Below are positions 2,085-29,293 of a stretch of 33,305 nt of DNA, piece by piece; position 1 is the stretch's first letter; every line of letters starts with the position of its first letter. A model generated the notes under the pieces. That model was not told the DNA's origin, did not search any database, and saw nothing but the letters and a program-made list of their open reading frames with translations. Source of the stretch: Bacteroidota bacterium (lineage in GTDB: Bacteria > Bacteroidota > Bacteroidia > Bacteroidales > VadinHA17); contig QKCK01000334.1 of NCBI GenBank assembly GCA_003245695.1, positions 1 to 33,305 of the forward strand, in the 5' to 3' direction. The position numbers and the translations under genes are program-made.

Positions 2085-2771
2085 CTAGATATGAGAGGGA
2101 CACCCGTGGCAAAATCCGTCGGAATCATAGTTCATAAGCCTGGCTCTGCAGGCATATCTGACCATCCCGAAAAGATTATTTACCCCAAATTTTCCTAAAA
2201 TGTTTTTTCTATGGGTTTTGACAGTGTTCTCACTTAGTCTCAACTCTTTTGCTATTTGTGTATTGGTGTTGCCTGCCACGAGCAGGGAGAGTACTTCTGT
2301 TTCGCGCTGTGTAAGAGCTACCTCGGGTTTTTTGCTGGAATAGACACTTGCTGACAGAATTGACTTAGTAATCTCTGAACAGAAGTAATTTTTGTCATTT
2401 ACCATATTTGTAAGTGCGGCAAACAAATCGGTCTTTGAGCAGCATTCTTTTAAAATATATGCATCTATTCCACTTTTTATGAGTTTGCTGCTCAAATTAG
2501 GGCTTGGTTGAAGAGATATGATCATAACACGAATCTGGGGAAATTGTCTCTTAAGATTGATTATGAGATCAATGTTTCTGCAGTTGGGCAGTATCAGTTC
2601 AATAATAATAATATCAACTGAATTTCTTGATTTAAGGTAATTTTCCAGATAAATTATCGGTACCAGTCCCTGAATGACAAAATCCCTGGAGTTTTCCAGT
2701 AATGAGCCCAATCCTTCTGAACATAAAGTCTGAGTATATGCGATAACAATCTGATGTTTGTTATTTGTCAT
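2085..2771 (-). CDS. LuxR/NarL-type DNA-binding regulator with degenerate receiver domain
   Basis: C-terminal LuxR HTH (LTQRETEVLSLLVAGNTNTQIAKELRLSENTVKTHRKNILGKFGVNN); N-terminal REC-like fold without the canonical acidic residues. Confidence 0.85.
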   Translation of the reverse strand: MTNNKHQIVIAYTQTLCSEGLGSLLENSRDFVIQGLVPIIYLENYLKSRNSVDIIIIELILPNCRNIDLIINLKRQFPQIRVMIISLQPSPNLSSKLIKSGIDAYILKECCSKTDLFAALTNMVNDKNYFCSEITKSILSASVYSSKKPEVALTQRETEVLSLLVAGNTNTQIAKELRLSENTVKTHRKNILGKFGVNNLFGMVRYACRARLMNYDSDGFCHGCPSHI

Positions 2772-3100
2772 ACCAACTAAATATGTGATAAGTTACAAAA
2801 TTTTAATAATGAGGCATCTGTTAATTAAAAAAATAGCATTATGGTAATCTAATATTTAGCGGGTAGGATACTGCTGGGAAATGTGAATTTATTTTCGGGA
2901 TAAAGCATGGAAGAAGCCGAACTTTCTGAGTTTACATAAACAGGGATGGGATTTCTGACAGTCAATAAGGGCAGATAGGTATAATTCACCTCATCAGGGA
3001 AATTCAATATGTTGAAAATTAATAATATTTGCTATATGTTTATTGGTCTTATAAAAGTATATTTACAGCCCGGATGTAGAACAAAATATCAAGAGAACAG

Positions 3101-5047
3101 ATGGTGGTGGCTGAATTGATTCAATTTTTAAAAGAAAGAAATATAGAGCTTCCGGGAACTGCCCGTGAGATACTTAGTGATAACCAGGATATTACCATTT
3201 ACAATACAGTAGCAGCTATTTCACAGGATGCTGTGGGTGGTGAATGTTCGTTTGTCTATGAGGTAAAATATGATATACCGGGCAAAGGTGAGTACACTGA
3301 AGCAATAGTTCACAGGGTTGCAAATGGTGTTTCTGCGAATTTCACAGAGCCATATATGCGTAGGAGGGATCCTGATACTATGGTTATTGCTGATAAAATG
3401 CCGGGAGACAAATCCAGATTCAGTGACAGGTTTGGGTATGACTTTTCCATACTTAAGGAAGAGACAATTCAGTGGTTAAAACAACAGCCGCTGGCAGTGT
3501 TTTTCTATTTTGCCGGAAGAAACGATATTGGAGTAACAGGGGTAGCAATAGCTCCTGCAAATGCCGGATTTTTCTCAATGGGTCTTGCAATGCTGCAAAA
3601 GATAGTGCCTGTTGACTCCCTGGTCCCAGGCAGGATTATTGAGTCGGCTATATATGTGGCACCTACATTCCGCCATACTCATTTTAACGGGAAACAGATA
3701 GTGGTACATGACAGGTCTGATAGCTTTCATGAAGTATACTCATATAACCTTTATCCGGGGCCAAGTGCCAAAAAGGGTCTTTATGGTGCTTTGCTCAATA
3801 AAGGTGAGAAGGAAGGGTGGATCACTGCACATTGCTCAACGGTGCAGGTCATTAGTCCATATGATAATGTGACAACATTCATGCACGAAGGAGCAAGTGG
3901 CGGTGGAAAGAGTGAGATGCTTCAGCATATTGTCAGGGAGCCAAACGGACAGGTTGTTGTAGGGGAGAATATTTTTTCGGGTGAGAAAAGACCTATTAAT
4001 CTGCCGTTATCCTGTTCATTTCATTCAGTGACTGATGATATGGCATTATGTCATCCGTCAATACAGAAAGTTAGTGGTAAACTCTCTCTTCTTGATGCTG
4101 AAAATGCCTGGTTTATACGAGTGGATGGCATTAACGAATATGGTGATGACCCGTTTCTTGAGAAAAACACTATTAAGCCAAAGCAACCCCTGCTCTTCTT
4201 CAATATTAATTCGAATCCGGGTTGTACTGCCCTGATATGGGAACATATTGAGGATGCTCCTGGGGTAAGATGCCCAAATCCACGGGTGATATTACCGCGT
4301 GATATTGTACCGGGAGTGGTCAATAAGCCTGTCACTGTTGACGTAAGAAGCTTTGGCGTCAGAACACCTCCCTGTTCAAGAGAGAACCCCAGTTATGGGA
4401 TAATTGGACTTTTTCATATTCTGCCTCCGGCACTCGCATGGTTGTGGCGACTTGTATCGCCCCGTGGATATGCTAATCCAAGTATTATTGGAGGCGAAGG
4501 GATGGGCTCTGAAGGTGTGGGCTCTTATTGGCCATTCGCCACCGGAAAGATGGTTACCCATGCTAATCTGCTGCTTGAACAGATAATTAACACCCCGAGA
4601 ATGAGATATACACTCGTTCCAAATCAGCATATAGGTGTATGGAAGGTGGGGTTTAAACCACAACTCCTGATGAGAGAGTATCTTACACGAAGAGGTAATG
4701 CAAAGTTCAGACCAGATCAGTATCAGGAAGCCAGATGTCCTCTTTTAGGCTATGAGTTCCAGTATGTAACAATAGAAGGAGCCAAGATCCCAACACGATT
4801 CCTCCAGGTTTACAGACAGACTGAGGTGGGTACGGATGGATATGACGCGGGTGCAGATATTCTATACGACTTTTTCAGAAAAGAGCTGGTAAAATATCTC
4901 TCTCCTGAGCTCTCCTCAACAGGTAAAAAGGTAATAGATGCCTGCCTTTCAGAAGCAACAGTAGAGGATTATAATTCAATAATACCAATGAATTATCAAT
5001 ACTCTTTTCTTACAAATAAGGATCTGGAACAGGGCATTTCTGAATAA
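3101..5047 (+). CDS. DUF4914-like protein, putative P-loop (PEPCK-like) kinase-fold protein
   Basis: 648-aa ORF; Walker-A-like HEGASGGGKSEMLQ; overall pattern resembles the DUF4914 family from memory (no search run). Confidence 0.6.
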   Translation: MVVAELIQFLKERNIELPGTAREILSDNQDITIYNTVAAISQDAVGGECSFVYEVKYDIPGKGEYTEAIVHRVANGVSANFTEPYMRRRDPDTMVIADKMPGDKSRFSDRFGYDFSILKEETIQWLKQQPLAVFFYFAGRNDIGVTGVAIAPANAGFFSMGLAMLQKIVPVDSLVPGRIIESAIYVAPTFRHTHFNGKQIVVHDRSDSFHEVYSYNLYPGPSAKKGLYGALLNKGEKEGWITAHCSTVQVISPYDNVTTFMHEGASGGGKSEMLQHIVREPNGQVVVGENIFSGEKRPINLPLSCSFHSVTDDMALCHPSIQKVSGKLSLLDAENAWFIRVDGINEYGDDPFLEKNTIKPKQPLLFFNINSNPGCTALIWEHIEDAPGVRCPNPRVILPRDIVPGVVNKPVTVDVRSFGVRTPPCSRENPSYGIIGLFHILPPALAWLWRLVSPRGYANPSIIGGEGMGSEGVGSYWPFATGKMVTHANLLLEQIINTPRMRYTLVPNQHIGVWKVGFKPQLLMREYLTRRGNAKFRPDQYQEARCPLLGYEFQYVTIEGAKIPTRFLQVYRQTEVGTDGYDAGADILYDFFRKELVKYLSPELSSTGKKVIDACLSEATVEDYNSIIPMNYQYSFLTNKDLEQGISE

Positions 5048-5062
5048 AATCCGTTTTAAATA

Positions 5063-6700
5063 TTATTCATTACCATTATCGGTATTGACATACTTGCGGA
5101 TGATGTCAAAAAGCTCGTTCTTTCTGATAGGTTTAAGCAGGTATCCGTCGAAACCCTCCTGCTTTATGCGCGTCAGGTCCTCTGGCAGGGCATAGGCTGT
5201 CTGCGCTACAACCGGAAGGTCAGAGTTTATCTCCCTTATCTTCATCAGAGCCTCATAGCCATTCATTACCGGCATTTTGATGTCCATGAGTACCAGTTTT
5301 ATGTTTTTGTTTTTATTGCAGTAATCAACAGCCTCTTTGCCGTTACAGGCTCTGATAAGATTGTAGTTGTTCGGGCCGACAAGCTTTTCTATGTATAGAT
5401 AATTGTAAAAATCATCCTCAGCAATAAGAATAACCTCGTTTTCGCCTTTTACTACATTAGTGTCAGACTCTTTAGTCTGGCTAATGTACTGTTTCATGGG
5501 CTTCTGAAATGTTATTGTGAAGGTGAAGACCGATCCCTTTCCAGGAGCAGAGGCAACCGCTATGGAGCCCCCCAGTAATTCAACATATGCCTTCGAAATA
5601 GCCAGACCCAGACCTGATCCTCCCTTTTTTATGGTCAGATCACTGTCAGCCTGTCTGAACCGTTCAAAAATAATCTTCTGATACTTGCTGTCAATGCCAG
5701 CTCCTGTATCAGTCACAGTGAACTTAAGTGTGTTATCGCCAATCAACTCGTAACCGAATGTGATATGCCCTGTATCAGTAAATTTTATGGCATTGTTTAA
5801 AAGATTAACCAGGATCTGCTTTAATTTCACCTCATCTGTTATGATGCTTTCTACCGGAGGATGATCATGTCTGAGAAGCCTTATGTCAAGGCTCTTCTCC
5901 TTCGGAATTGTAATGCGGAGAGAATTGTATACATCTTCTAAAAGGTGATTGAGATTTGTGACTGAGGCATGCATAACAGCCTGCCCGGCTTCAATCCTTG
6001 ATATCTCAATGATGTCATTTATTATAGAAAGAAGATGTTCCCCGCTGGTCTTTACTATATCGAAATAACCTTCTCTCTCTTCATGTGATATGTCTTGTGA
6101 CCTTAAAATCTCAGTGAATCCGAGAATCGCATTCATCGGAGTACGTATTTCATGAGAGAGATTTGCAAGAAAAAGCGATTTTAACCTGTCATTTTCTTCG
6201 GCCATTTCACGGGCGGCAATCAGCTCCTCCTCATAATGTTTTCTCTCTGTGAAGTCCCTGAGGATTGCAATTATTGCCGTTTCTCCATACCATGCTGTTT
6301 TACTCAGCGATACCTGGACAGGGATGATCATATCGCCCTCCAACGGCTTTATTTTCCACTCTATTGTTCTTGGGATGTTATTGAGAACTCCATTGAATGC
6401 TGAAGAGATATCACCTGTATTTTCACTGTCAGAGAGGATGTCATATACATTGTATTCTTTTTCATCTTTGTCGGAGGCCTTTATTAGCAGACGTGCCTGA
6501 TCATTCAGAAACAACAGTTTGCCATTAAGGTCAAGTATCAGAATACTGTCGCTTGTGCTGTTTATCAGAGTGGCAAGATAGAGCCTGGCCATTTCAAGCT
6601 CGGTTATTTTCTCCTGCAGATCCGGATAATAGCTTTTTTGAAAGGAGTTCTCTCCAAGCCCTATTATCTTCTCCCTGTATTTCCTCCAGTCTACAGTCAT
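5063..6700 (-). CDS. Soluble hybrid sensor histidine kinase (PAS-HisKA-HATPase_c-REC)
   Basis: H-box NLSHEIRTPMNAILGFTE; N-box VNLLNNAIKFTD; G-boxes DTGAGID, GGSGLGLAIS; REC domain LVLMDIKMPVMNGYEAL; no obvious transmembrane segment. Confidence 0.92.
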   Translation of the reverse strand: MTVDWRKYREKIIGLGENSFQKSYYPDLQEKITELEMARLYLATLINSTSDSILILDLNGKLLFLNDQARLLIKASDKDEKEYNVYDILSDSENTGDISSAFNGVLNNIPRTIEWKIKPLEGDMIIPVQVSLSKTAWYGETAIIAILRDFTERKHYEEELIAAREMAEENDRLKSLFLANLSHEIRTPMNAILGFTEILRSQDISHEEREGYFDIVKTSGEHLLSIINDIIEISRIEAGQAVMHASVTNLNHLLEDVYNSLRITIPKEKSLDIRLLRHDHPPVESIITDEVKLKQILVNLLNNAIKFTDTGHITFGYELIGDNTLKFTVTDTGAGIDSKYQKIIFERFRQADSDLTIKKGGSGLGLAISKAYVELLGGSIAVASAPGKGSVFTFTITFQKPMKQYISQTKESDTNVVKGENEVILIAEDDFYNYLYIEKLVGPNNYNLIRACNGKEAVDYCNKNKNIKLVLMDIKMPVMNGYEALMKIREINSDLPVVAQTAYALPEDLTRIKQEGFDGYLLKPIRKNELFDIIRKYVNTDNGNE

Positions 6701-6703
6701 GCT

Positions 6704-7870
6704 TTATAATGCCTCGCTAAGTATTATCTCAAAGTCTTTCTGAGACGGGGTCCTGGGATTTGTTGCATTACAGGGGTCTCCTAATGCCTTTGATGCCAGG
6801 GTAGGTATTATTTCAGAAGTAATCCCTTTTGATGTCAGGGTTGATGTTATACCCATTCTATGCGTAAAGTCAAACATATATTGTGTGAGACTCTCTTTTA
6901 TCTCTGTCTGACTCTTTCCATTTGTTTCAATACCAAGGGTACTTGCAATGTTAGTGTATTCGTCAGGTGCAGCGTAGAAATTATAACCGATGACATGTGG
7001 GAGAAGTATTGCATTACATTCCCCGTGAGGCAGATCAAGATAACCTCCCAGACTATGGGCCAGTGAATGAACACATCCAAGGCTGGCATTGGAAAAGGCT
7101 AACCCGGCATACAGGCTTGCCAGCATAATTTTGCCCCTGGCTTCCAGGTCGTCAGGGGTGGTGATAGTATCATAGAGATTGTCGTTAATCAGGCGTATTG
7201 CCTCAAGTGCAAAAAGATCTGTGAAGTTTGAACTTGCATTCGAAACATATGCTTCAAATGCATGGGATAAGGCATCTATCCCTGTACACGCTGTCAGAAA
7301 ACTGTCCATGGTGGTGAGTACATAGGGATCTATCAGGGCAATGTCAGGGACTATTGACTTGCTGATGATAGCCATCTTATATCGTTCACTTATCTTATTG
7401 ATTATCGCAAACTGAGATACATCAGCTGAAGAGCCGCTGGTTGTGGGGATACAAACCATCGGTGGGAGCGGGCGTCTTATCATATCCACACCCTCAAATC
7501 TGGTAATGTCATCCCTGTTTGTTGCTACTATCCCAATACCCTTGGCACAGTCAATGACACTGCCTCCACCTACTGCCAGTAACAGGTTACAGGCATGGTT
7601 ATTAAAATGAGCTGCACCCTCCATAACCTCCTTGTCTCTGGGGTTGGGCGTGACAGAAGAAAAAACAGTGTATTCTATGCCTTTTAAATTCAGGTCATCT
7701 GCAATCTCACTGAACCATGATTGCTTCATCACTATCGGATCAGTCACAAGACACACTTTTATGCCTCCCAGTTTTCTGCAATAATCACTGGCAAGGGCTC
7801 TTGCCCCATCCCCAAAGATATATTCAGGGGCAACAAATTTTCTCAACTCCAGCTTAACCTTCTCCTTCAT
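6704..7870 (-). CDS. Iron-containing (group III) alcohol dehydrogenase
   Basis: 388-aa ORF; GGGSVIDCAKGIG nucleotide-binding motif, metal-site region HSLAHSLGGYLDLPHGECNAILLPHVIGYN. Confidence 0.9.
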   Translation of the reverse strand: MKEKVKLELRKFVAPEYIFGDGARALASDYCRKLGGIKVCLVTDPIVMKQSWFSEIADDLNLKGIEYTVFSSVTPNPRDKEVMEGAAHFNNHACNLLLAVGGGSVIDCAKGIGIVATNRDDITRFEGVDMIRRPLPPMVCIPTTSGSSADVSQFAIINKISERYKMAIISKSIVPDIALIDPYVLTTMDSFLTACTGIDALSHAFEAYVSNASSNFTDLFALEAIRLINDNLYDTITTPDDLEARGKIMLASLYAGLAFSNASLGCVHSLAHSLGGYLDLPHGECNAILLPHVIGYNFYAAPDEYTNIASTLGIETNGKSQTEIKESLTQYMFDFTHRMGITSTLTSKGITSEIIPTLASKALGDPCNATNPRTPSQKDFEIILSEAL

Positions 7871-7991: not shown

Positions 7992-9275
7992 TTATGACTG
8001 TTTCATTTTATCCCACAATCGTTTTGCATGTTTTTTTGATTCTGAAGTAATTTCATTTTCATCCACTCTTGTTATTTGTCGATCCTTTACAATGATCCTT
8101 CCACGGGATATAACATGCCTCACATTGTTTGAGGTCAGACCAAAGATGAAGTGACCTGAAAAATTATCCTTGTTGAATTCAGTAGGAGAAGAATAATCAA
8201 GAACAACCAGATTATTGTCACTGTCCCCTGTGTAATTGTTTTCAGCAAGGTAGTTGTGTATATTTCTGAATCGTTGGTAGGCTGAAAGGTAGTTTATGTT
8301 GTCATGTCTCTGCCCGCTGAAAAAGGCAGCTTTAGTGCTCTGTAACATATCACTGTGCATTCCGTCAGTGCCCAGCATTATCTTGTCTCCCAAACCAGTG
8401 CCGTTAAAGTAGCCTACATTATTGTTCATATTGCTTTCGCAATTCTCTGCCACCCAGCACGGTGAATGCCTGATGATGTTTCTTTCATTTTCATCAAGAT
8501 GAAGGCAATGGGCAAGTATGGTCTTTGATGAAGCAAGGGCTCCTGCTTCATTAAGGCGCTCTATCACTCTTTTGCCATGGTCGCGGAGGCATAACTCCTG
8601 ATCAATATTGTCTTCAGCAACATGAATGTGAATCCCGCTGTTAAAGCGGTTCATAATCTCAACAGCCCTCGCAAGAGTGTTGTTGCCAATGGTGAAGGAG
8701 GCATGTAGCCCTACCAGTCCCTGATGGCTCTGAAGATATGATTCAGTCTCCTTTAAGCCTCTCTCAGTTATCTCAACTCCATCGCGGTCAGACACCTCAT
8801 AACAAAGCAGGTGTGAAATACCCACCCTCTCAAACGCCTCTTCTATTATCTCAAGAGAGGTACTGACTGCATTTGGTGACGCATGATGATCAATAACGAA
8901 AGTAGCCCCTGCTTTTGCACACTCCATTGCTGCTACCAGCGCGCTTGACTCTATCATCTTTTCATCAAGGCATTTGTCAAGGGTCCACCATATATACTGC
9001 AGTATCTCAAGGAAATTCCGTGGATTCTTTTTTGGCGCACCCATCCCTCTTGATAAAGCTGAGTAGATGTGATGGTGTCCGACTCCAAATGACTTTGTTA
9101 CATACATGCCTGTGCAGTCAATTACCTCTGGACGGAGATCAGTAATAACACTGTTCAGGTTGTCATCTTCAATAAAGCTGAGCGCTTCATCTTCTTGATC
9201 GGTAAGAATGTTGCAACATTTAAAGTCAAGAGTCATCCAGTTGATATATGTTGCATTCTTAAGAATAACTGCCAT
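7992..9275 (-). CDS. ssnA: SsnA-like putative aminohydrolase/chlorohydrolase
   Basis: 427-aa amidohydrolase; GVGHHHIYSALSRGM, HIHVAEDN, LAHCLHL, GTDGMHSDM motifs; order SsnA next to an XdhD-like protein matches the E. coli purine/selenium locus. Confidence 0.85.
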   Translation of the reverse strand: MAVILKNATYINWMTLDFKCCNILTDQEDEALSFIEDDNLNSVITDLRPEVIDCTGMYVTKSFGVGHHHIYSALSRGMGAPKKNPRNFLEILQYIWWTLDKCLDEKMIESSALVAAMECAKAGATFVIDHHASPNAVSTSLEIIEEAFERVGISHLLCYEVSDRDGVEITERGLKETESYLQSHQGLVGLHASFTIGNNTLARAVEIMNRFNSGIHIHVAEDNIDQELCLRDHGKRVIERLNEAGALASSKTILAHCLHLDENERNIIRHSPCWVAENCESNMNNNVGYFNGTGLGDKIMLGTDGMHSDMLQSTKAAFFSGQRHDNINYLSAYQRFRNIHNYLAENNYTGDSDNNLVVLDYSSPTEFNKDNFSGHFIFGLTSNNVRHVISRGRIIVKDRQITRVDENEITSESKKHAKRLWDKMKQS

Positions 9276-9290
9276 GGTTCATTTTTTAGA

Positions 9291-11846
9291 TTATTTGCTG
9301 AATCTCCTGACGGGCAGCCTGGTTCTCTTTACTCCATCATAGGCGTAAAGGGCATTTACAATAGCGGCGGCTGTTGGCACCAGACCTATTTCGCCTATCC
9401 CTTTAGCCCCGTATGGTCCTACCGGATCTCTTTTCTCAATTCCGATTATCTCCATCTCGGGCATAGATGATGCTCTGAGGATGCCTAAGTCATTATATTT
9501 CAAGCTTACAGGCCGGCCGTTTTTCATAGGAAGGTCTTCACTAAGGGCATACCCCATACCCATATGAAGCGCTCCCTCTATCTGTCCTTCAAACAGCATC
9601 CTGTTCATTATTTTTCCTGCATCATGAGCCGCTATTATTTTTTGAATATCGCCGTGGTCATCTAGTATCACTACCTGTGTGGCATATCCATATGCAAAAT
9701 GGATAATAGGCTCTTCTGTCCCGCTTCCCGGTTTGCATGTCCAGTCACATATATACTTGCCTTTATAGACACGTCCGGCGAGTTTGTCCAACGAACTGCC
9801 ATCCAGATCGTCTCTTATCCTTCGTGCAGCATCGATAAGCGCGTTTCCTACCAGAGAAGTGGCCCTTGATGAAGTAGTCATGCCTGTCGGAAGCCCTTTT
9901 GCTGTGTCGACTCTTACCTCAATTATCCCAGGGTCTATTCCCGTTTCCTGATGAAGTACCTGGATAGCCATGGTGTGTACGCCCTGTCCCATTTCACTCC
10001 ATCCGTGGTTAATCACAACCCTGTTCTCTGAGGTGATTTCGACAGATACTTCACTTTCATCAGTCATTCCATTACCTACTCCTGTGTTTTTCAGGCCACA
10101 GGCGATGCCGGCATACTTTGCTTCATGGAAGGCCTCTTTCACTGCAAGCAGCGTTTCTTTAAGCCCTACGCCATGTAATATTTGCCCTGTGGCTGTTTTC
10201 TTACCCTCTTCCAGCGCGTTGTCATATCTTATCTTCCACCGGTCAAAACCTCCTTTTACGCATATCTCGTCTATACAGCTCTCCAGTGCAAAGACCACCT
10301 GTGGCACTCCAAAACCACGCATAGCCCCTGAGGGTATGTTGTTGGTATAGACCGTGGCGGCCTTGATGTCTACGGACGGGATTGTATATCCTCCCGTGGC
10401 ATGACCCACAACTCTTTCCATTACCTTTGTGCCTACTGAAGCATAGGCGCCGGTGTCACCTATCGAATTAAGCTTTATTGCAGTGAACATTCCATTGCTG
10501 TCGCAGGCTAGACTTATCTCCATCCATACCGGATGCCTTTTGGGATGCATAATTATTGACTCATCCCTGGTAAGATGTACTCTGACAGGTCTTTTGAGCA
10601 GATATGCGTGCAGTGATGCGTGACCCTGGACCGTGATGTCTTCTTTGCCTCCAAAACCCCCTCCGTTCTGTACCTGAATGACTCTTATACTTTCCGGTGA
10701 TAATCCAAGGATTTCAGCAACAGCATTCCGATCAACATACGCGCCCTGACCCTGGCTGTATAGTCTTATGCCATCTCCTTCAGGAAGCGCTATGGCTGTT
10801 TCTGTCTCAAGAAAGGCGTGTTCTATACGCTGTGTCTCATATATGTCTGAGGAGATATATGCAGCCTCACTGAAAGCTCTCTCAACATCACCGAATCTGA
10901 TACTGCATGTCTCAAGTACATTTGATCTCCCCTGATGTACCTGCATGCTGTCAGGTTTAATTGCTTGGTGAATGTCAGTGACAGGTTCAAATATCTCATA
11001 TTCCACATCTATGAGCCTGACAGCAGCGCGGGCTGCTGCTTCAGTTTCTGCAACAATGCCTGCCAGCACATCCCCTATGTAGTTTGTCGTCTCTCCTATG
11101 TCTACCATAAGGGGCCAGTCTTTAAATATAAGACCTGTTTTGTGGCTGCCGGGAATGTCTTTTGCAGTGTATACAGCTATTACCCCATCAGCTCTTTCAG
11201 CCCTGCTGGTGTCAATGCTTTTTACCCTGGCTCTTGGGTGATCTGAGAACCTGAGAGCTGAATGAACCATGCCTTCAAAATACATGTCGTCAACAAAGTC
11301 TCTCTCGCCCAGAGCCGTCGTAACAGCCTGGTATTTTGGATATCGTGAACCTATCAGAGCGTCTGTTTTACCTTCCCTTTGAGATAGATTATTCAGCTCA
11401 TGGAAAGCAGACTCTATGGCATCAGCAATTTTTACATACCCTGTACATCTGCACAGGTTTGGTGTTATGGCTTTAATTATCTCCTTTCGTGACGGGGATT
11501 GATTAGTGTTGTAGAGCCCGCGTGCTCTCATTATCATTCCCGGAGAGCAGAATCCGCATTGAACAGCCCCTTTCCCGGCAAAGTGTCTGCTCATTACCTC
11601 CCTGAATATTTCAGGCAGACCCTCAGTGGTATTAACTTCAGCTCCTTCAATATCCTTCATTTTTGTTCTGCATGCCATTTTAACTCTGCCGTCAATCTCC
11701 ACACTGCAGGCTCCGCAGACACCCTGTCCCGAACAACCATCCTTGGCAGTAGTGATCTTCTCTTCAAGCCTGAGATGTCTGAGTAACGTCTCCTCAGGGT
11801 CTCCCTCGAAAACTCTCTTTATACCGTTTAGAGTGAAGCTGATCAT
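9291..11846 (-). CDS. xdhD: XdhD-like molybdopterin hydroxylase: N-terminal 2Fe-2S domains fused to Mo-binding domain
   Basis: CSGQGVCGACSVEIDGR and CGFCSPGMIMRA...CRCTGYVKI [2Fe-2S] motifs; Mo domain GGGFGGKED, MRGFGVPQ, GAKGIGEIGL; 851 aa. Start overlaps the upstream stop by 4 bp (ATGA). Confidence 0.88.
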   Translation of the reverse strand: MISFTLNGIKRVFEGDPEETLLRHLRLEEKITTAKDGCSGQGVCGACSVEIDGRVKMACRTKMKDIEGAEVNTTEGLPEIFREVMSRHFAGKGAVQCGFCSPGMIMRARGLYNTNQSPSRKEIIKAITPNLCRCTGYVKIADAIESAFHELNNLSQREGKTDALIGSRYPKYQAVTTALGERDFVDDMYFEGMVHSALRFSDHPRARVKSIDTSRAERADGVIAVYTAKDIPGSHKTGLIFKDWPLMVDIGETTNYIGDVLAGIVAETEAAARAAVRLIDVEYEIFEPVTDIHQAIKPDSMQVHQGRSNVLETCSIRFGDVERAFSEAAYISSDIYETQRIEHAFLETETAIALPEGDGIRLYSQGQGAYVDRNAVAEILGLSPESIRVIQVQNGGGFGGKEDITVQGHASLHAYLLKRPVRVHLTRDESIIMHPKRHPVWMEISLACDSNGMFTAIKLNSIGDTGAYASVGTKVMERVVGHATGGYTIPSVDIKAATVYTNNIPSGAMRGFGVPQVVFALESCIDEICVKGGFDRWKIRYDNALEEGKKTATGQILHGVGLKETLLAVKEAFHEAKYAGIACGLKNTGVGNGMTDESEVSVEITSENRVVINHGWSEMGQGVHTMAIQVLHQETGIDPGIIEVRVDTAKGLPTGMTTSSRATSLVGNALIDAARRIRDDLDGSSLDKLAGRVYKGKYICDWTCKPGSGTEEPIIHFAYGYATQVVILDDHGDIQKIIAAHDAGKIMNRMLFEGQIEGALHMGMGYALSEDLPMKNGRPVSLKYNDLGILRASSMPEMEIIGIEKRDPVGPYGAKGIGEIGLVPTAAAIVNALYAYDGVKRTRLPVRRFSK

Positions 11847-13081
11847 AATATAATATTTTTCAGATTGTCAACAGAAGGTTCTATTGAATCAGGCATATTT
11901 ATTCCTGGCTTAACTGCATTGAGATCCTTTAGGCCACAACCTGTAAGTAATACAACATTTGTGGTTCCTGGTAAAAGAATGCCATTCCTGCTGTACGATA
12001 GCATGCCTGCAAAAGCTGTTGCGGCAGCAGGCTCTGCAAACAGGCCTGTATTGCGTGAAAGAATGGCTGAGGCATTAAGTATGTCCTCGTCACTTACAGT
12101 CATGTACTCACCTGAATACCTCTGAATATAGTTGGCAGCCATATAAAAATTGCGGGGTATGTCAACAGCAATGGAGTCAGCAATTGTATCTGACGGGCTT
12201 ATGGTAAAGGTCTCTTTGCCAATGTTACTGACAAGGTTGTCGCTTCTCTCTGATTGTACGGCAACAATAGCAGGCATACGATCTATTATCTTCAGGCTGA
12301 GCAGATCTTCAAACCCTTTATAGACTCCTGATATAATTACTCCATCACCAACAGGGACAAATATTCTGTCGGGTAACATTTTCTTAAGCTGGCCATAGAG
12401 TTCAAACGATACACTCTTCTTTCCCTCAATGGTAATGGGATTATAAGCTGTATTTCTGTTATACCATCCAAATTCACGGGTTGCCATTATGCTCAGGTCA
12501 AAAGCCTGGTCATAAGTTCCTTTCACCGGAACGATAGTGGCGCCATACATCATTATCTGAGTGAGCTTTGCCAGTGGAGCTCTCTCCGGGACCATGATAA
12601 TAGCCTTCTGTTTCTGCGAAGCACATATACCTGCCAGTGATGACCCGGCATTACCAGTGGAAGCAGCCACAATGGTTCTGATGCCCTTCTCCCTGGCATA
12701 GGCAGATACCAGGGCTGAAGCCCTGTCTTTAAACGAATATGTAGGGTTCTGAGAGTCGTCCTTCAGCCAGAGATCAAAAGGCAATTTGCCTGAATCAATC
12801 TCAGATATATGGTACAGAGGTGTATTGCCTACTATCAGTGGGGGCATTGACCATAAATTATCTATCGGAAGAAGATCAATAAACCCTGTTTTTCTCAGTG
12901 CTTCAAATCCTTGTGACCTCTTTAGTATACCAGAGTAATCATATATAACCTTCAATACTCCTTTCGGTGGTGTGGTTGCACTGTTTGTTGCACTGCATGA
13001 TGGACACAGGTATGTTACTGCTTCCGTCATGTATTCATGGCCGCAGTCATTACACCTGTAAACGAATTTGCCCCTGCTCAT
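11843..13081 (-). CDS. Threonine synthase-like PLP enzyme (fold type II) with N-terminal zinc ribbon
   Basis: Zinc ribbon YRCNDCGHEY...YLCPSC; PLP lysine NPTYSFKDRAS; phosphate loop STGNAGSS; IEGKKSVSFEL as in the ThrC family. Confidence 0.8.
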   Translation of the reverse strand: MSRGKFVYRCNDCGHEYMTEAVTYLCPSCSATNSATTPPKGVLKVIYDYSGILKRSQGFEALRKTGFIDLLPIDNLWSMPPLIVGNTPLYHISEIDSGKLPFDLWLKDDSQNPTYSFKDRASALVSAYAREKGIRTIVAASTGNAGSSLAGICASQKQKAIIMVPERAPLAKLTQIMMYGATIVPVKGTYDQAFDLSIMATREFGWYNRNTAYNPITIEGKKSVSFELYGQLKKMLPDRIFVPVGDGVIISGVYKGFEDLLSLKIIDRMPAIVAVQSERSDNLVSNIGKETFTISPSDTIADSIAVDIPRNFYMAANYIQRYSGEYMTVSDEDILNASAILSRNTGLFAEPAAATAFAGMLSYSRNGILLPGTTNVVLLTGCGLKDLNAVKPGINMPDSIEPSVDNLKNIIL

Positions 13082-13114
13082 CTATATCTGTTAACGGTTT
13101 ACGTAAAGGTAAGT

Positions 13115-14590
13115 CTATTTCAGCAACCCGGTGCGGTCATTGAATTCATTTATCATCTCATCCCATTTATCGACCTGCGTAAACATGGTATCCCAAATAT
13201 GTCTGTCAGACCATAACATATTGAGATCTTCCGTCTCTTTTCCCTGTTGTTCCACCCAGGTATAATATTTGAGGTTATGGATTGCCTTGCGGTCTCTGTA
13301 TCCCAGTTCCTTCATATTGTCGGTGGAAGTCCCCATAATGCATTTTTCAAAGTCTTTTATTGCCTGTGTGGTACTGTAGGCACCACGTTCTTCTGTAAGC
13401 TCAGAGATCCTTGACCTGTACATGTCAGCCGAGTCAGTGGCAATTGTGAAAATAATGTCTTCACTGGTCATTTCGAAATATTTTGCAGTCTTAATTGCCG
13501 ATAACATATTGCCGATGCCAGAGATGCCTATCAGATGCAGGTCATTGATGACACTCATTTCAATACCTGTGGCTTTGAGAAGGTCATGGCCCTCTCTTTC
13601 ATTAAACAGACGCAGTGTTCTCATGCAATCTTCATCATCAATGGCTGTGATAATATCAGTGTTCTTTACATTGTGCACCCATGGAACATGCTTGTCTCCA
13701 ATACCTTCGATGCGATGACCTCCAAAACCATTCATGAGCAGGGTGGGGCATTGCAGCGCCTCTGAAGCAACAACCTTAACGTGTGGGGCAATACGTCTCA
13801 GATAATCACCTGCGGCAATAGTGCCTGCTGATCCTGTTGCAGAGACATATCCGGCAAGTCTGCTATCCTTATCTCTGATAAGATTAAAGACATCTTCTAT
13901 TGCCCTGCCAGTGGTGTTGAAGTGCCAGGCAGCATTGCCAAACTCATCAAACTGGTTGAATATTATACAGTCGGGGCGTGTTCGCCTTATCTCCCAACAC
14001 TTGTCATATATCTCTTTTACATTTGATTCACACCCTGGCGTGGCGATAACTTCTGAGCCGATAACATCACGCAGCCATGTAAAGCGCTCCCTGCTCATCT
14101 CTTCAGGCAGAATCGCAACCGATTCTGTACCCATAAGCTTTGAGTCAAAAGCCCCACCTCGACAATAGTTGCCGGTAGATGGCCATACAGCTTTGTGGTA
14201 CGTGGGGTCAAAGCCTCCGGTAATAATTCTTGGAGCCAGGCATCCATAAGCCGCACCTACCTTGTGCGCTCCCGTGGGGAACCATTTCCCGATTAATAGC
14301 ACTATACGCGCATCCACCCCTGTCAGTTCACGGGGAAGCTCTATGTAATTTACATCGCCAAAGAGACCTCCCTTTTCTTTTGGTTCGTTTTTCCACGTTA
14401 TGCGGAAAAGGTTCAGAGGGTTGATGTCCCATAATCCTATGCCTTTCAACTTCTCCCTTATCATTTCAGGGATGAGCGACGGATTCCTCTGCTGTTCAAA
14501 AGTAGGAAGGATTATACCTCTCTCCCTGAAACGCTTTACGGCATTCTCCAGGACTTTTTCATCAGTTATTTTATCAATTGGTGATATCAT
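13115..14590 (-). CDS. Fold-type II PLP-dependent enzyme, substrate unknown
   Basis: 491 aa; PLP-lysine-like FPTGAHKVGAAYG (cf. TrpB TGAHK), phosphate-binding STGNYCRGGAF; first gene of the minus-strand operon. Confidence 0.78.
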   Translation of the reverse strand: MISPIDKITDEKVLENAVKRFRERGIILPTFEQQRNPSLIPEMIREKLKGIGLWDINPLNLFRITWKNEPKEKGGLFGDVNYIELPRELTGVDARIVLLIGKWFPTGAHKVGAAYGCLAPRIITGGFDPTYHKAVWPSTGNYCRGGAFDSKLMGTESVAILPEEMSRERFTWLRDVIGSEVIATPGCESNVKEIYDKCWEIRRTRPDCIIFNQFDEFGNAAWHFNTTGRAIEDVFNLIRDKDSRLAGYVSATGSAGTIAAGDYLRRIAPHVKVVASEALQCPTLLMNGFGGHRIEGIGDKHVPWVHNVKNTDIITAIDDEDCMRTLRLFNEREGHDLLKATGIEMSVINDLHLIGISGIGNMLSAIKTAKYFEMTSEDIIFTIATDSADMYRSRISELTEERGAYSTTQAIKDFEKCIMGTSTDNMKELGYRDRKAIHNLKYYTWVEQQGKETEDLNMLWSDRHIWDTMFTQVDKWDEMINEFNDRTGLLK

Positions 14591-14662
14591 CTCTAACTAT
14601 TTTTTGGTTATAATAATGCGCAATTTACTAAATGTAAAGTAAAATACTTATATAATAAGAAA

Positions 14663-14683
14663 TAATAGAATAAAATACTATTA
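14663..14683. promoter_or_regulatory. Candidate operator palindrome TAATAG-N9-CTATTA between divergent lrp-like gene and purine operon
   Basis: Read directly: taatag aataaaata ctatta in the divergent intergenic region; spacing compatible with a dimeric HTH regulator but unproven and AT-rich. Confidence 0.35.
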
Positions 14684-14707
14684 AAGCATTAAAAACAGGA
14701 AAATAAA

Positions 14708-14715
14708 TATATTTG
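14708..14715 (+). promoter_or_regulatory. Bacteroidota-type -7 element TATATTTG upstream of the Lrp-family gene
   Basis: Exact match to TAnnTTTG, about 40 bp upstream of the likely GTG start at 14755; no clear -33 TTG found. Confidence 0.4.
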
Positions 14716-14754
14716 CATTATGGTTTTATTAGGAAAAAAAGGAGATCACAACAG

Positions 14755-15216
14755 GTGAAGAAGCTTGATGAAATTGACAGGAAGTTACTGAACATTCTTC
14801 AGACAGACAGTCGGATAACAGTAAGGGAGTTGTCTGAGAAACTACATTTGTCAACCACCCCGGTTCATGAGAGAATAAAAAAGCTGGAGGGGAATGGTTA
14901 CATACAGCAGTATATTGCTGTACTTGACCCCAAGTTACTGGGGAAGAGGCTTATAGTATATATATCGGTTTCGCTTGTCACACACACCAAAGAGGCTGTT
15001 GATGAGTTTGAGGCTGCTATGGAGAGACTTGATGAAGTGATGGAGTGTTATTACATATCAGGTAATGCCGACTTTCTGGTAAAGGTATATTGTAATGATA
15101 TGGATGATTATCATAGTTTTATCACCTACAAGTTTTCTGTGATAAAGAATATTACACAATTCTATAGTTCCTTTGTAATGGCTGAGACTAAGGTAAAGCG
15201 GAACTACAGTCTGTAA
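14755..15216 (+). CDS. Lrp/AsnC-family transcriptional regulator
   Basis: KKLDEIDRKLLNILQTDSRITVRELSEKLHLSTTPVHERIKKLEGNGYIQQYIAVLDPKLLGK HTH plus AsnC-type C-terminal domain. ORF track starts at TTG 14713, inside the likely -7 box; GTG 14755 preceded by aggag (14739-14743 region) is more plausible. Confidence 0.88.
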   Translation: MKKLDEIDRKLLNILQTDSRITVRELSEKLHLSTTPVHERIKKLEGNGYIQQYIAVLDPKLLGKRLIVYISVSLVTHTKEAVDEFEAAMERLDEVMECYYISGNADFLVKVYCNDMDDYHSFITYKFSVIKNITQFYSSFVMAETKVKRNYSL

Positions 15217-15219
15217 TTT

Positions 15220-18200
15220 TTATGCAATCTCTTTGGCTCCCTGAAGCACTACCAGCATTTTCACTGCTCTTTCAAAGTGTGCCTGTTGAATACATGGGGT
15301 AAGAAACTCAGCGCTGAGAAGTCTGAAGTCTTCCTTTGAAAAACGGGCTGACACGTAATCGTTCTCATATATATATTCATCAGATAGTTCAGACAGTGTT
15401 GTGATACTGTTATTCTGTCTGAAGATAATATTTGTTCTGTCCTTTAATCTTGCAAGCAGATATCCTTCTTCAGCCTGGTTAAAGGCCGATGCGGTAAGGA
15501 AGAGCCTTGGTTTGTCTTTATACGGGGACCCGGCTGTGGGGCAGAATGTGGTGCAGTTGCCGCATTCATTACAGAAGTTGGCTATATTGAGTACCTGGTA
15601 CTGTTGTTGTAGCTCGAAAGGTTTGTCATCGCTTATTATTATTTCGCCGTTTTCATTGAGAGCTGCCTTCTGCAGCATTATTCTGAAAGGAGTGATGTTA
15701 TATGACCTGTTTGCAAAATTTGGACACACTGATACACAAATATTGCATAACTCATCGCAGTAAAGGCAGCGTTGGGCTTCTTTTATGGCACTATCCCTGT
15801 TGATTGTCTCACTTACAAGGTCAAAGCTCTTTCTACGGCTCAGGGGCAACTCTTTTAGTTCAGTGCTGTATTGTCTGATAGATTTTTTTATTATCAGCTC
15901 CTTTTTAGTATGTATGTCTCTTCCTTCAGGTTTGCTGATTGAAAAGGTTATGCCATGGTTTGCTATTATTTCGGCAGCAGCTTTCCTGCCGTCAGCGATA
16001 GCATTTATTGCTGTGGAGGCTCCTCTCAGGGCATCTCCACCAATGTATACATCAGCGAGTTGAGTCATGTATGAGCCAGTGAGTGTTCTTAGCTCTTCGT
16101 CTGTGGCAAAGGGCAAAGATCTCTGCTGTCCTATGGCAGGTATAATCGTATCGCATTCAATCTCAAATGATGAGTCTTCTATCTTAACAGGTGTTGGTCG
16201 TCCTTTGTCATCTACTCCGCACAGTTCCATTCTGGTGCATGATATGGCTTTCACTTTTCCATTATCTCCAATTATCATCTCAGGAGAAGCGAGCTCAATC
16301 ACCCTTATCCCTTCCTCCAGCACTGCCTTTATCTCACCCTGGTCAGCGGGCATTTCATTTATGGTGCGTCGGTATATCACTGTTACTCTGCCATTTTTGC
16401 CTGTCAGGCGCCATGCAGTGCGGGCTGCATCCATTGCAGTATTCCCTCCTCCGATAATCACAATGTTCTCTCCGGCACCTGTCTTCTCTCCGGCTCTTGC
16501 CCTGTAAAGAAAAGAGAGTGGGTCAATAACCCCTTGAAGATCAGATCCATCTATTGCAAATGGTGTGGCTGTCTGTGCTCCGGCACCTATAAAGAGCGAG
16601 GAATACTCTTTCCGCATTTTGCTGAAGAGAGAGGCATCTACAATTGTGTTGTATTTTACTGATACTCCAAGTTCTGTTATCCTGTTGATATCTTTGATGA
16701 TAGCTTTGTCAGTAAGCCGGAATCCTGGAATGGCAAACTGTACCATCCCCCCTGGTTCTGACCTTGACTCAAAAACATCTACACTGAAGCCGGCCAGCGC
16801 CAGAAAATATGCACATGAAAGACCTGAGGGTCCGGCTCCTATGACCGCAATCCTGATCCCATTGTTCCTTATCTCTTTTGTCTCTTCCTCAGACACTTCC
16901 GCGATGAAGCGTTTTATCTCCCTTATCTGCAGTGGATTATCATAGTTTATCCTGGTGCATTTCCCCTGGCAGAGGTGATCACATACCATGCCTGTAGTTG
17001 ACGGAAAGGGGTTTGTCCGGAGGATTGCCTCATGTGCCTTGTCAAACATCTTGTGCGATGTATAATACATATAATCAGGGATGTCCTGTCCGGTTGAACA
17101 GGTGTCGCGGCAAGGTGCTGAGATACAGTCAAATTCAGTAAGACTGCGTTTGGTCTTTATGTCAGGTGTCCGGAGGTATTCTCTTCTGTATCTGCCGGAA
17201 CAGATAATCCTGTCAGCATACTCATTAAGATATGCCAGTGAAACTTGTTTACCCTCTGCTGTCTCTCCGCCTCCGTTTACGAATTCTGCTATGCTCCCTG
17301 CTGATTTGGTGTCAAAGGCACTGTTTAGCTCATCGAAATACTGTTTTAACCTCATGTATCCGCCGGGTCTTAAGAGGTCAGAGCATACTGTCACCGTTTT
17401 AAAACCGCAGGAAATCACATCGGCAATATTAAAAGCATCTACTCCTGCCGAGAAGGAGAGTGTGAGCTCGCCTGTGAAGTCATTCTGGAGTTTTTTTGCC
17501 ACATTTATTGAGATGGGGTGTAAGGCACGACCACTCATATACATCATTTCAACGTCATTGCCAAAGCACCCCTTGTTATTTACAGACTCCAGAGTATTGG
17601 TGAGTTTCAGCCCGAATTGCAGATTGTGCTTGTCTGACAGCTTCCTTAGAGAGCGAATGATATTCAGGGCATCTCCATATTTCAGGTCGTGTTCAAAGGC
17701 AATGTCAGGTACTATGGTTTTGAAATCAAGCTTTTTATTCAGTATCTCTCTGAGACTATCGGCCCCCAGCAATGTGGGGTTCAGCTTAACAAATGTGTGA
17801 AGCTTTTTCTTTTCTATAAGATACCTTGCTATCTCTTCAATCTCACCGGCAGGACAACCATGCATTGTAGACAATGTTATATTGTCAGAAAGAGAGGCGG
17901 GGATGTATATTTTATCAATCTCAGGTATGATATCTCTTATCTCATCTTTTTTCTTTTCTATCTCTTCACCGCAGTCTCTCATCTTCATGAGAAACCAGTC
18001 AACATTATCACTCATTATGCCATTGAGGTTATACCCTACACTCATGTTGAATATTACCCCCGGTTGATTACCCCACCCAAGTGTGTGATTCAGAATATGA
18101 ATCATCATCCACGCCTTCAGATATTCATCAAAGCTATCACTTACTTTAAGTTCCTGCGACCATTCGCAGTTATATCCTTCATCCTGCATGTCTATGCAGG

Positions 18201-18498
18201 GTTTTGATATTAATAGCTCATCCAGTGTCTGAATGGTTTTCAGTTCTATATATCTTGCTCCCATCAACCAGGCTCCGATAATGTTCTGCGACATCTGTGT
18301 ATGCGGCCCTGCTGCCACACCTATTGGCGTCTGCAGTAGGTGCCCAAACATTTCTGTGGATAGTTTCTGATTGTCTGCAGGTTTGAAAAACAGATCATCA
18401 GGTATGCCAAAGATGCTGCCTTCTCTTTTGTGCTCTCCTAAAATCATAAGCAACAGCTGACGCAGGGGTATAGGATAGAACTTATCTGATGTTTTCAC
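15220..18498 (-). CDS. ygfK: YgfK-like Fe-S/flavin oxidoreductase ('putative selenate reductase' subunit)
   Basis: 1092 aa; N-terminal dihydroorotate-dehydrogenase-like region, GltD/NfnB-type FAD/NAD(P)H domain (CRDTCSTGQDIP, GAGPSGLSCAYFLALAGFSVDVFE, GGGNTAMDAAR), C-terminal ferredoxin motifs CDELCNICVSVCPN and CNECGNCTTFCPT. Confidence 0.88.
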   Translation of the reverse strand: MKTSDKFYPIPLRQLLLMILGEHKREGSIFGIPDDLFFKPADNQKLSTEMFGHLLQTPIGVAAGPHTQMSQNIIGAWLMGARYIELKTIQTLDELLISKPCIDMQDEGYNCEWSQELKVSDSFDEYLKAWMMIHILNHTLGWGNQPGVIFNMSVGYNLNGIMSDNVDWFLMKMRDCGEEIEKKKDEIRDIIPEIDKIYIPASLSDNITLSTMHGCPAGEIEEIARYLIEKKKLHTFVKLNPTLLGADSLREILNKKLDFKTIVPDIAFEHDLKYGDALNIIRSLRKLSDKHNLQFGLKLTNTLESVNNKGCFGNDVEMMYMSGRALHPISINVAKKLQNDFTGELTLSFSAGVDAFNIADVISCGFKTVTVCSDLLRPGGYMRLKQYFDELNSAFDTKSAGSIAEFVNGGGETAEGKQVSLAYLNEYADRIICSGRYRREYLRTPDIKTKRSLTEFDCISAPCRDTCSTGQDIPDYMYYTSHKMFDKAHEAILRTNPFPSTTGMVCDHLCQGKCTRINYDNPLQIREIKRFIAEVSEEETKEIRNNGIRIAVIGAGPSGLSCAYFLALAGFSVDVFESRSEPGGMVQFAIPGFRLTDKAIIKDINRITELGVSVKYNTIVDASLFSKMRKEYSSLFIGAGAQTATPFAIDGSDLQGVIDPLSFLYRARAGEKTGAGENIVIIGGGNTAMDAARTAWRLTGKNGRVTVIYRRTINEMPADQGEIKAVLEEGIRVIELASPEMIIGDNGKVKAISCTRMELCGVDDKGRPTPVKIEDSSFEIECDTIIPAIGQQRSLPFATDEELRTLTGSYMTQLADVYIGGDALRGASTAINAIADGRKAAAEIIANHGITFSISKPEGRDIHTKKELIIKKSIRQYSTELKELPLSRRKSFDLVSETINRDSAIKEAQRCLYCDELCNICVSVCPNFANRSYNITPFRIMLQKAALNENGEIIISDDKPFELQQQYQVLNIANFCNECGNCTTFCPTAGSPYKDKPRLFLTASAFNQAEEGYLLARLKDRTNIIFRQNNSITTLSELSDEYIYENDYVSARFSKEDFRLLSAEFLTPCIQQAHFERAVKMLVVLQGAKEIA

Positions 18499-18708: not shown

Positions 18709-20961
18709 TTATTTTGAATATAAATTCCTCAGCACCTTTTCCGGGGTCATTGGGAGGTTAAAATCAGGTGTATATCCTGGGTTGAAGGCTTTAATAGCAT
18801 TCTGTATTGCAAAATAGGCTCCTATGCCATACATGAACGGGGGTTCACCTACCGCCTTTGATTTCATTACAGCAAGTTCCGGACCTGTTGTCTCAAGTGG
18901 TATACATTCAAGCCTTGAAGGTGCTGAATAGATGTCAGGGACTTTATATGTAGAGAGAGTATCAGACAGGAGTCGTCCCTCACTGTTGAAAACAATCTCT
19001 TCCATGGTACTCCATCCAAGACCCTGTAGTACGCCTCCCTCTATCTGCCCCTTATCAATCACCGGATTCAGGCTGTTGCCAAAGTCATGAACAATAAGAA
19101 CCTCATCAATGTCGTATGTCCCCCTGATGCAATCAACAGTTACTGTAATAATTGCGGTGCCATATACATGATAAGCAAAGGGATTTCCTTTCTCTGATGT
19201 TTTATCAAAGAATATTTTTGGTGTGGTGTAATGTCCTATTTCTGAAAGTGATACTCTTTTTAAAAAGGCTTCTTTTATTAGCTCCTGCCAGGTAAGTTCT
19301 GTAGGGGTCGACTCTTTGAAGATAATCTCGTTATGAAATGAGATATCTTCAGCATTGCAACCTGTTATTGCTGATGCAACCTTTTTCAGTCGTGCTGAGA
19401 GTGCATTGCAGGCTATTATCAGGGCATTCCCATTTAAGTCAGTGCCACTGCTTGCTGCAGTGGGAGAGGTGTTGGCTACCCTGGATGTATTTGTGGTTTC
19501 AAGCTTTACCCTGTTTATATTAACAGAAAAGACTGCCGCTGCTATCTGAGCCAGTTTAGTGTTTACTCCCTGTCCCATTTCTATTGCACCAGTACTTATC
19601 CCAATGCTGCCATCCTGGTATATATGTACCAGTGCTCTGGCTTGATTCATTGTAGTATTAGTGAAAGAGATTCCGAAGCATACAGGCATAACTGCCATTC
19701 CTCTCCTGGCGTTTGGTGAAGAGGCGTTGAAGTCGTTTATCTCTTTCTCTTTGTTGTTGAGCTGAAACTTCTCCGACGCTTCATTAAAACACTCTTTTAT
19801 ATTTGATCCGGAGGCTACCTGCCCATATTGGAACAGATCTTTTTCTTTGAGCAGATTTGTCTTTTGTATTAAACGGGCAGGTATATTAAGCTTGTATGCA
19901 GCCAATGCGATTGCAGATTCGATAACGAAAATGCCCTGTGGCGCTCCAAAACCTCTGAAAGCAGTATTGGGAGGGAGGTTGGTTCTGCAACTGTATACTG
20001 TTACTTCGGTATTTGGGATGAAATAGGCATTTGTGGAATGAAAAAGTGTGCGTTCCATAATCGCCGGAGAGAGGTCAGCGGAGGCTCCTCCGTTCTGATA
20101 CATTGTAGCTTTAAATGCAATGATTCTGTAATCTTTTGACAATCCTATCCTGAAGTCAGAGCTGTAGGGATGTCTTTTGCCAGTCATACGAATATCATCA
20201 TGCCTTGGGAGGACAAGCTTAACAGGTCTGTGGAGGTGATATGCTGCCAGTGCTGTCATTACAGCAAAGCCGGTTGCCTGGTCTTCTTTACCTCCAAAGC
20301 CACCTCCAAGACGTGCCACATCAACCTCTATCTGGTTCATTGTCATGCCAAGGACCTGTGCCGTAATCCGCTGCACTGCCGTTGGACCCTGTGTTGATGA
20401 GTGTATCTTTATCCCTCCGTTATCTGCAGGGTATGCATATGCACCCTGGGTCTCAATATACAAGTGCTCCTGAGCTCCACTGTCAACACTCCCTTCAAAG
20501 ATATATTCGCACTGGTCCCAGGCTTCTTCTATCTCACCAAGCCTGAAGGTACGGGGAGGTATCAGGAATTCTTCTCTCTCTCTTGCAATGCGTGGGTCTG
20601 TGATAATCTCAAGAGGCTCACTTATTATCTTAATCAATCCGGCAGCACGTCGGGCTGTCAGCTCATCTCTCGCAACAACAAGGGCTATTGGCTGTCCGTA
20701 GTAATGTGTCTCGTCAGAAGCAAAGAGAGGCTCATCAGCAATAATACCACCTATCTCATTCTGCCCAGGTATATCCGCCGATGTGAAAATCCTTTCAACA
20801 CCTTTAACAGCCATGGCATCTTCTAAATGCACTCCGGTGATCTTTGCGTGTGCTGCCTTAGAACCTAGAACAGCCCCATATAACGTGTTATGTAACACCG
20901 GGATGTCATCAAGATAGACGGATCTTCCTCTTACATGATTTGCTGACTCCATATTATTCAT
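18709..20961 (-). CDS. Xanthine dehydrogenase molybdenum-binding subunit (XdhB-type of bipartite XDH)
   Basis: 750 aa; GGGFGGKEDQ, MERTLFHSTNAY, NTAFRGFGAPQG, FGISFT, EMGQGVNTK, TSPTAASSGTD, SKAVGEPPF all parallel mammalian XOR motifs. Confidence 0.9.
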   Translation of the reverse strand: MNNMESANHVRGRSVYLDDIPVLHNTLYGAVLGSKAAHAKITGVHLEDAMAVKGVERIFTSADIPGQNEIGGIIADEPLFASDETHYYGQPIALVVARDELTARRAAGLIKIISEPLEIITDPRIAREREEFLIPPRTFRLGEIEEAWDQCEYIFEGSVDSGAQEHLYIETQGAYAYPADNGGIKIHSSTQGPTAVQRITAQVLGMTMNQIEVDVARLGGGFGGKEDQATGFAVMTALAAYHLHRPVKLVLPRHDDIRMTGKRHPYSSDFRIGLSKDYRIIAFKATMYQNGGASADLSPAIMERTLFHSTNAYFIPNTEVTVYSCRTNLPPNTAFRGFGAPQGIFVIESAIALAAYKLNIPARLIQKTNLLKEKDLFQYGQVASGSNIKECFNEASEKFQLNNKEKEINDFNASSPNARRGMAVMPVCFGISFTNTTMNQARALVHIYQDGSIGISTGAIEMGQGVNTKLAQIAAAVFSVNINRVKLETTNTSRVANTSPTAASSGTDLNGNALIIACNALSARLKKVASAITGCNAEDISFHNEIIFKESTPTELTWQELIKEAFLKRVSLSEIGHYTTPKIFFDKTSEKGNPFAYHVYGTAIITVTVDCIRGTYDIDEVLIVHDFGNSLNPVIDKGQIEGGVLQGLGWSTMEEIVFNSEGRLLSDTLSTYKVPDIYSAPSRLECIPLETTGPELAVMKSKAVGEPPFMYGIGAYFAIQNAIKAFNPGYTPDFNLPMTPEKVLRNLYSK

Positions 20962-22349: not shown

Positions 22350-22415
22350 CAGACTAAGATAATGAAAACGGTAATTGCTCTTATTCAGCTGAGGATGAAA
22401 AAACTATTATTTCCT

Positions 22416-29259: not shown

Positions 29260-29293
29260 GCCGGGATGTGAGTGTTTACACCCGGCAGCTTTT
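29260..29293. terminator. Hairpin between convergent ygeW and hyuA genes, candidate terminator
   Basis: gccggg(a)tgt gagtgttt acacccggc followed by agctttt on the + strand. Confidence 0.55.

Follow-up and report, generated by a model that had tools for sequence, protein, structure and literature searches.

This analysis concerns a pair of adjacent genes on contig QKCK01000334.1 of a Bacteroidales bacterium of the VadinHA17 lineage (assembly GCA_003245695.1), of which positions 1 to 33,305 are referred to as the window. The pair encodes two pyridoxal 5'-phosphate (PLP) enzymes of fold type II, here called PLP491 and TSL (threonine-synthase-like), within a gene cluster for reductive uric-acid degradation. 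The content and order of the genes, their shared distribution and the relationships of their families lead us to infer that TSL is probably a non-orthologous 2,3-diaminopropionate ammonia-lyase, which replaces YgeX. PLP491 is an added component, because it is found with either TSL or a divergent YgeX, and probably does something extra. Together with the uric-acid cluster, the pair constitutes a real and widespread variant of a recently solved pathway.

The reductive uric-acid degradation cluster is known from E. coli and C. difficile, and its pathway was solved in 2025 (Li et al. 2025, PMC12507026). It is of interest for its relevance to gout and gut urate. The window shares XdhD, YgfK, SsnA, HyuA, YgeW and YgeY with this cluster; all six are found together on the contig by profile matches (SsnA under its cut-off), which provides a candidate gene for each known step except that of YgeX. 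By contrast, YgeX is missing from the window, which has two other PF00291 enzymes instead, and the reductive (anaerobic) cluster would be complete with the PLP491/TSL pair in place of this last enzyme. A published survey counted any PF00291 gene as YgeX and listed no Bacteroidota (PMC12507026); such scoring potentially overcounts YgeX, and the Bacteroidales now join the likely uricolytic groups. Neither a threonine-synthase-like enzyme nor a second PLP enzyme is mentioned in the open-access literature on anaerobic urate and xanthine use that we searched, and the variant is undescribed there. Conserved across many anaerobes, this alternative ending supplies directly testable enzymes.

Both open reading frames are intact, and their coordinates, lengths (491 and 412 amino acids) and motifs had been given correctly in an initial annotation made from the sequence alone. 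On the minus strand, PLP491 is followed after 33 bp by TSL, the stop codon of TSL and the start codon of XdhD lie in a 4-bp overlap, and SsnA follows XdhD after 15 bp; the pair heads an operon continuing into XdhD and SsnA. The same annotation had described the two proteins as non-homologous-looking, which has to be revised: both match Pfam PF00291 (TSL with 226 bits and PLP491 with 54 bits, cut-off 35) and are distant homologues of one fold. A promoter scan of positions 14500-14850 gave a result no better than chance.

Distribution of PLP491, TSL and YgeX

The genome of the window (G000) is a metagenome-assembled genome (MAG) of 3.59 Mb, in which no ygeX was detected: the top match to the YgeX model TIGR03528 is TSL, with 33 bits (cut-off 532), and PLP491 is absent among the matches listed. 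Because this MAG is 94% complete, the absence of ygeX is strong yet not absolute. A PF00291 search of the same genome returned six proteins, namely an IlvA-like protein, CysK, two TrpB, PLP491 and TSL. The genes for CysK, TrpB and the IlvA-like protein are located apart from the cluster, as is a class-II ThrC gene.

Of 247 genomes of the order, 63 encode PLP491, 60 encode TSL and 66 encode a true SsnA. TSL and SsnA are shared by 58 genomes (Fisher p 5e-45), PLP491 and SsnA by 59 (p 7e-44) and PLP491 and TSL by 55 (p 4e-40), and TSL is present in just 2 of the 181 genomes without SsnA. In a second set of 50 PLP491 genomes, mostly from other phyla, 42 carry TSL, about 44 carry SsnA and 11 carry YgeX. 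TSL lies no more than 1.2 kb from PLP491 on the same strand at 24 of 40 order-level loci and at 34 of 73 genome_contigs loci, two sets that partly overlap, and this linkage is far above chance. Many loci combine PLP491, TSL, YgfK, XdhD, SsnA, HyuA, YgeW, YgeY or carbamate kinase, and the linkage with xdhD and ssnA, on which the initial annotation had made its proposal depend, is conserved in many genomes.

TSL and YgeX are ALTERNATIVES; they tend to exclude each other, if not strictly. Among the 50 PLP491 genomes, YgeX was found in 5 of 8 lacking TSL versus 6 of 42 bearing it (p 0.0085). Within the order, the 63 genomes with PLP491 include YgeX in 3 of 8 without TSL versus 0 of 55 with it (p 0.0014), and mutual exclusivity of TSL and YgeX largely holds. 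Moreover, the two exchange places: the gene order is PLP491-YgeX-xdhD in G246 and ygfK-PLP491-YgeX in G026, with YgeX at the usual position of TSL. In G129, PLP491 is present with YgeX elsewhere in the genome. In G073, both PLP491 and TSL are missing; 26 bp separate ygfK from xdhD, and a canonical YgeX is encoded at another locus. The YgeX relative found beside PLP491 scores above the cut-off of the diaminopropionate ammonia-lyase model NF006058 (422 versus 276 in the scanned copy L119), and in its group the E. coli YgeX residues K77, D120 and D189, which we take to be catalytic, are retained. The simplest reading of the exclusion and the slot swap is that TSL has YgeX activity. This agrees with the original placement of the pair where YgeX would be expected; ygeX was not found elsewhere in the genome, and neither protein proved to be a housekeeping ThrC or TrpB orthologue. 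The further suggestion that the pair performs the amine-eliminating or beta-replacement step is partly supported, with TSL as a likely substitute for YgeX, but the two enzymes are not equivalent, and PLP491 also occurs beside YgeX.

The substrate pocket of TSL

In a tree of 66 proteins, TSL forms its own clade (support 99) inside the threonine-synthase part, while the YgeX proteins form a third clade (100). Its AlphaFold model is confident (predicted local distance difference test, pLDDT, 90.5), and structure comparison identified threonine synthases as the closest solved structures, at ~31% identity. TSL shares with class I threonine synthase (ThrC) the fold, the catalytic lysine and the SFKDR and STGN motifs, but differs in its replaced phosphate-pocket residues, in GKK for GQK and ADSI for ATAI, and in its uricolytic gene context. 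K118 is the PLP lysine of the window protein, A145, T217 and D246 occupy the ThrC phosphate-site positions, and R209 and D302 are invariant. All 34 TSLs aligned retain the PLP lysine and the STGN loop; at the positions of T88, R160 and N188 of Thermus ThrC, which presumably bind the substrate phosphate, all 34 carry A, T/L/M and D, respectively, with R160 and N188 retained in none. By contrast, the class I ThrCs of the same genomes retain R160 and N188. The TSLs further have an invariant R, D and K of their own at positions 153, 239 and 164.

The loss of the arginine and the gain of aspartates would suit a substrate whose side chain is cationic, as that of diaminopropionate is. TSL is a relative of threonine synthase in which acidic residues have rebuilt the phosphate pocket, and it would most probably form an external aldimine with diaminopropionate. 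K118 would take the alpha proton from this aldimine, the beta-amino group, held by D246 and D302, would be expelled, and the aminoacrylate set free would yield pyruvate and ammonia. With YgeX (TIGR03528/NF006058), TSL shares fold type II, the pathway position and, probably, acidic residues close to the side chain of the substrate; it differs in having Thr for Asp120 and a zinc ribbon and in falling on the ThrC side of the tree, while PLP491 groups with CysK.

Several points weigh against TSL as the replacement of YgeX. The co-occurrence counts and p values ignore shared ancestry, and the 50-genome set was chosen for carrying PLP491. Canonical YgeX, TSL and PLP491 occur together in Diplocloster (G284) and in three Chloroflexota genomes (G272, G276, G290), and the replacement is therefore not strict. 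Finally, TSL could also make threonine, because several TSL genomes have no detectable ThrC.

PLP491 and the alternatives

PLP491 is highly conserved, with 56-79% identity to the window copy over 51 sequences from many phyla; its relatives are encoded at at least 591 places in an 84,980-species collection, of which the best 80 were kept; the set of 50 genomes described above was drawn from these. Four contigs titled Izimaplasma, Aminicenantes, Chlamydiota or Spirochaetes (L098, L112, L117, L118) encode copies 71-79% identical to that of the window, and are probably mis-binned MAG contigs or cases of recent transfer. The protein carries its PLP lysine, K110, in the motif GAHKVGAAYG, its asparagine loop in S138-T-G-N141 and its active-site lid in E295-G-I-G-D-K-H301. 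It forms a single clade (Shimodaira-Hasegawa-like approximate likelihood-ratio support 100) that groups with CysK (98), and its confident AlphaFold2 model (pLDDT 92) is closest to beta-cyanoalanine synthase and O-acetylserine sulfhydrylase (cysteine synthase), at ~24% identity. With TrpB apart in the tree, and from the structure search, kinship to TrpB is ruled out; of the affinities considered in the initial annotation, that to ThrC applies to TSL, albeit as a clade of its own, whereas PLP491 belongs with CysK. PLP491 shares the fold core and the GIG lid region with CysK, beta-cyanoalanine synthase and cystathionine beta-synthase, but is ~170 residues longer, has HKVG in place of KDR at the lysine and carries DKH in the lid. 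No NCBIfam model reached its cut-off with PLP491, including the CysK model TIGR01139 (98 bits, cut-off 351), and the cysteate synthase models TIGR03844 and NF053679 are passed by neither protein (TSL, 59 bits of 325; PLP491, 35 bits of 600). PLP491 is a separate family near cysteine synthase. A misannotation is hereby corrected, as a clostridial TSL passes the cut-offs for threonine synthase and PLP491 falls into no curated family.

Three features, namely the GIGDKH lid, the kinship with CysK and the neighbouring Lrp regulator, suggest that PLP491 catalyses a beta-elimination or beta-replacement on an amino acid; homologues of the regulator were seen at 11 of the PLP491 loci that were inspected. 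PLP491 may be a CysK-like partner that shares the C3 amino acid substrate of TSL or takes the ureido precursor of that substrate; candidate roles are those of a D-isomer lyase or racemase, an albizziin lyase, or an enzyme of serine or cysteine formation. Canonical YgeX accepts both diaminopropionate isomers, and in G073 it occurs without either partner; for these reasons, a stereo-complementary lyase or racemase is a first, weak guess. The YgeX beside PLP491 speaks against it, as it keeps D120 and leaves the stereoisomer idea without residue-level support. The related notion that this YgeX lacks Asp120 and needs PLP491 for the D-isomer is ruled out, since its TDGN is retained.

Tentatively, PLP491 and TSL could form a new two-enzyme end module of anaerobic purine catabolism, found in many uricolytic lineages other than those of the E. 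coli/C. difficile type. Its substrate would then be another C3 intermediate or another stereoisomer than that of YgeX, D-diaminopropionate or albizziin for instance. The end of the pathway is itself debated, with regard to the first-leaving ureido group and the stereoisomer formed (PMC12990295), and if such a module exists, the published end is just one variant.

It is rather unlikely that PLP491 is the main diaminopropionate lyase, with TSL or YgeX as an accessory, or that the pair acts sequentially on another C3 intermediate, for instance through urea beta-elimination, with albizziin as the substrate, or through a beta-replacement that yields serine or cysteine. PLP491 is tied to SsnA as tightly as TSL is, it is related to the beta-eliminating and beta-replacing CysK enzymes, its D-K-H lid motif is polar and invariant, and the divergent Lrp/AsnC regulator suggests an amino-acid substrate. 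Yet a bona fide YgeX adjoins PLP491 in G026 and G246, which argues that PLP491 is no simple substitute, and an albizziin lyase would be needless given the YgeY that many of these clusters also encode. An L-serine dehydratase gene lies at the YgeX locus of G274 and the PLP491 locus of G129 (L189 and L200) and would fit such a role; we set it aside as a clue to the product of PLP491, as it concerns two genomes only.

Less probable still is that TSL works as an ordinary threonine synthase, or a bifunctional one, and is present in the operon by chance. Apart from its closest structures, this is favoured by the profile scores: a clostridial TSL passes the NCBI threonine synthase cut-offs (306 versus 303; TIGR00260, 216 versus 167), and the window protein, of zinc-ribbon/PALP architecture, reaches 165 bits with TIGR00260 (cut-off 167). 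In addition, most sampled TSL genomes of the order have no other ThrC, and the class-II ThrC of the window genome (L203, G000:C68, ~2506-3408) has an in-frame TAG and is cut by the contig end, for which reasons its state is uncertain, between pseudogene and assembly error. However, the phosphate-pocket replacements in every TSL, the near-restriction to SsnA genomes and the clade apart from ThrC disfavour a housekeeping role, and threonine synthesis is conceivable as a second activity. Of ten genomes sampled in the order with TSL as the only ThrC-family match, nine show no match of TIGR00191 for the homoserine kinase gene thrB, although this model also missed the Bacteroides control.

Lastly, the pair is very unlikely to serve the cluster's molybdenum or iron-sulfur enzymes by supplying sulfide or selenide rather than to act in carbon flow: the CysK-like PLP491 does adjoin XdhD and YgfK, which use sulfur-containing cofactors, but sulfur is usually donated by NifS proteins of fold type I, and the TSL/YgeX exclusion and their common slot would be left unexplained.

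The gene context of PLP491 is not uniform. In G040, PLP491 lies outside the main operon, in a xanthine dehydrogenase cluster, and is directly followed by an 8-oxoguanine deaminase gene (L051, 5286-8172; deaminase 590 bits, cut-off 532). It is found near purine nucleoside phosphorylase in G129, and in several further genomes its neighbours are unrelated.

Other genes of the window and of related loci

Table 1. Genes of the uric-acid cluster in the window, with profile scores where available
Feature	Position	Strand	Remarks
PLP491	13115-14590	-	491-aa fold-type II PLP enzyme; a CysK-side family of its own
TSL	11843-13081	-	412-aa PLP enzyme with a zinc ribbon, threonine-synthase-like; proposed to be the 2,3-diaminopropionate ammonia-lyase
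XdhD-type molybdenum hydroxylase	9291-11846	-	TIGR03311 892 bits, cut-off 830; adjoins TSL in operon
SsnA aminohydrolase	7992-9275	-	NF005540 367 bits, TIGR03314 328 bits; under NCBI cut-offs, best family
Lrp/AsnC-family regulator	14755-15216	+	divergent from PLP491
YgfK, xanthine reductase of the reductive uricolytic pathway	15220-18498	-	TIGR03315 902 bits, cut-off 835
XdhB, XdhA, XdhC-like genes	18709-23372	-	second molybdenum hydroxylase and maturation factor
YgeY, ureido-group hydrolase	26813-28024	+	524 bits, cut-off 321
YgeW, knotted carbamoyltransferase	28054-29238	+	653 bits, cut-off 453
HyuA/dihydropyrimidinase-type hydantoinase	29292-30668	-	TIGR02033 510 bits, cut-off 393

XdhB, XdhA and XdhC represent a second xanthine-dehydrogenase-like set besides the XdhD-type enzyme. 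Directly downstream of SsnA, positions 5063-7870 encode an ErcA-type iron alcohol dehydrogenase, which scores over its NCBI cut-off, and then a hybrid histidine kinase; with a LuxR-type response regulator at 2085-2771, these genes may form a separate regulatory unit. A DUF4914 protein (944 bits) is also encoded near the cluster (3101-5047).

A probable membrane protein of ~209 residues without a Pfam match recurs in 11 loci (e.g. L078:18222-18851), typically between SsnA and HyuA. Four loci (L160, L155, L149, L171) have an ornithine-carbamoyltransferase-like protein, 31-35% identical to YgeW, in the position of YgeW and adjoining YgeY. Near PLP491 in Elusimicrobiota (L134, L147), there are two distinct carbamoyltransferase-like genes, as if phosphorolysis might remove both ureido groups.

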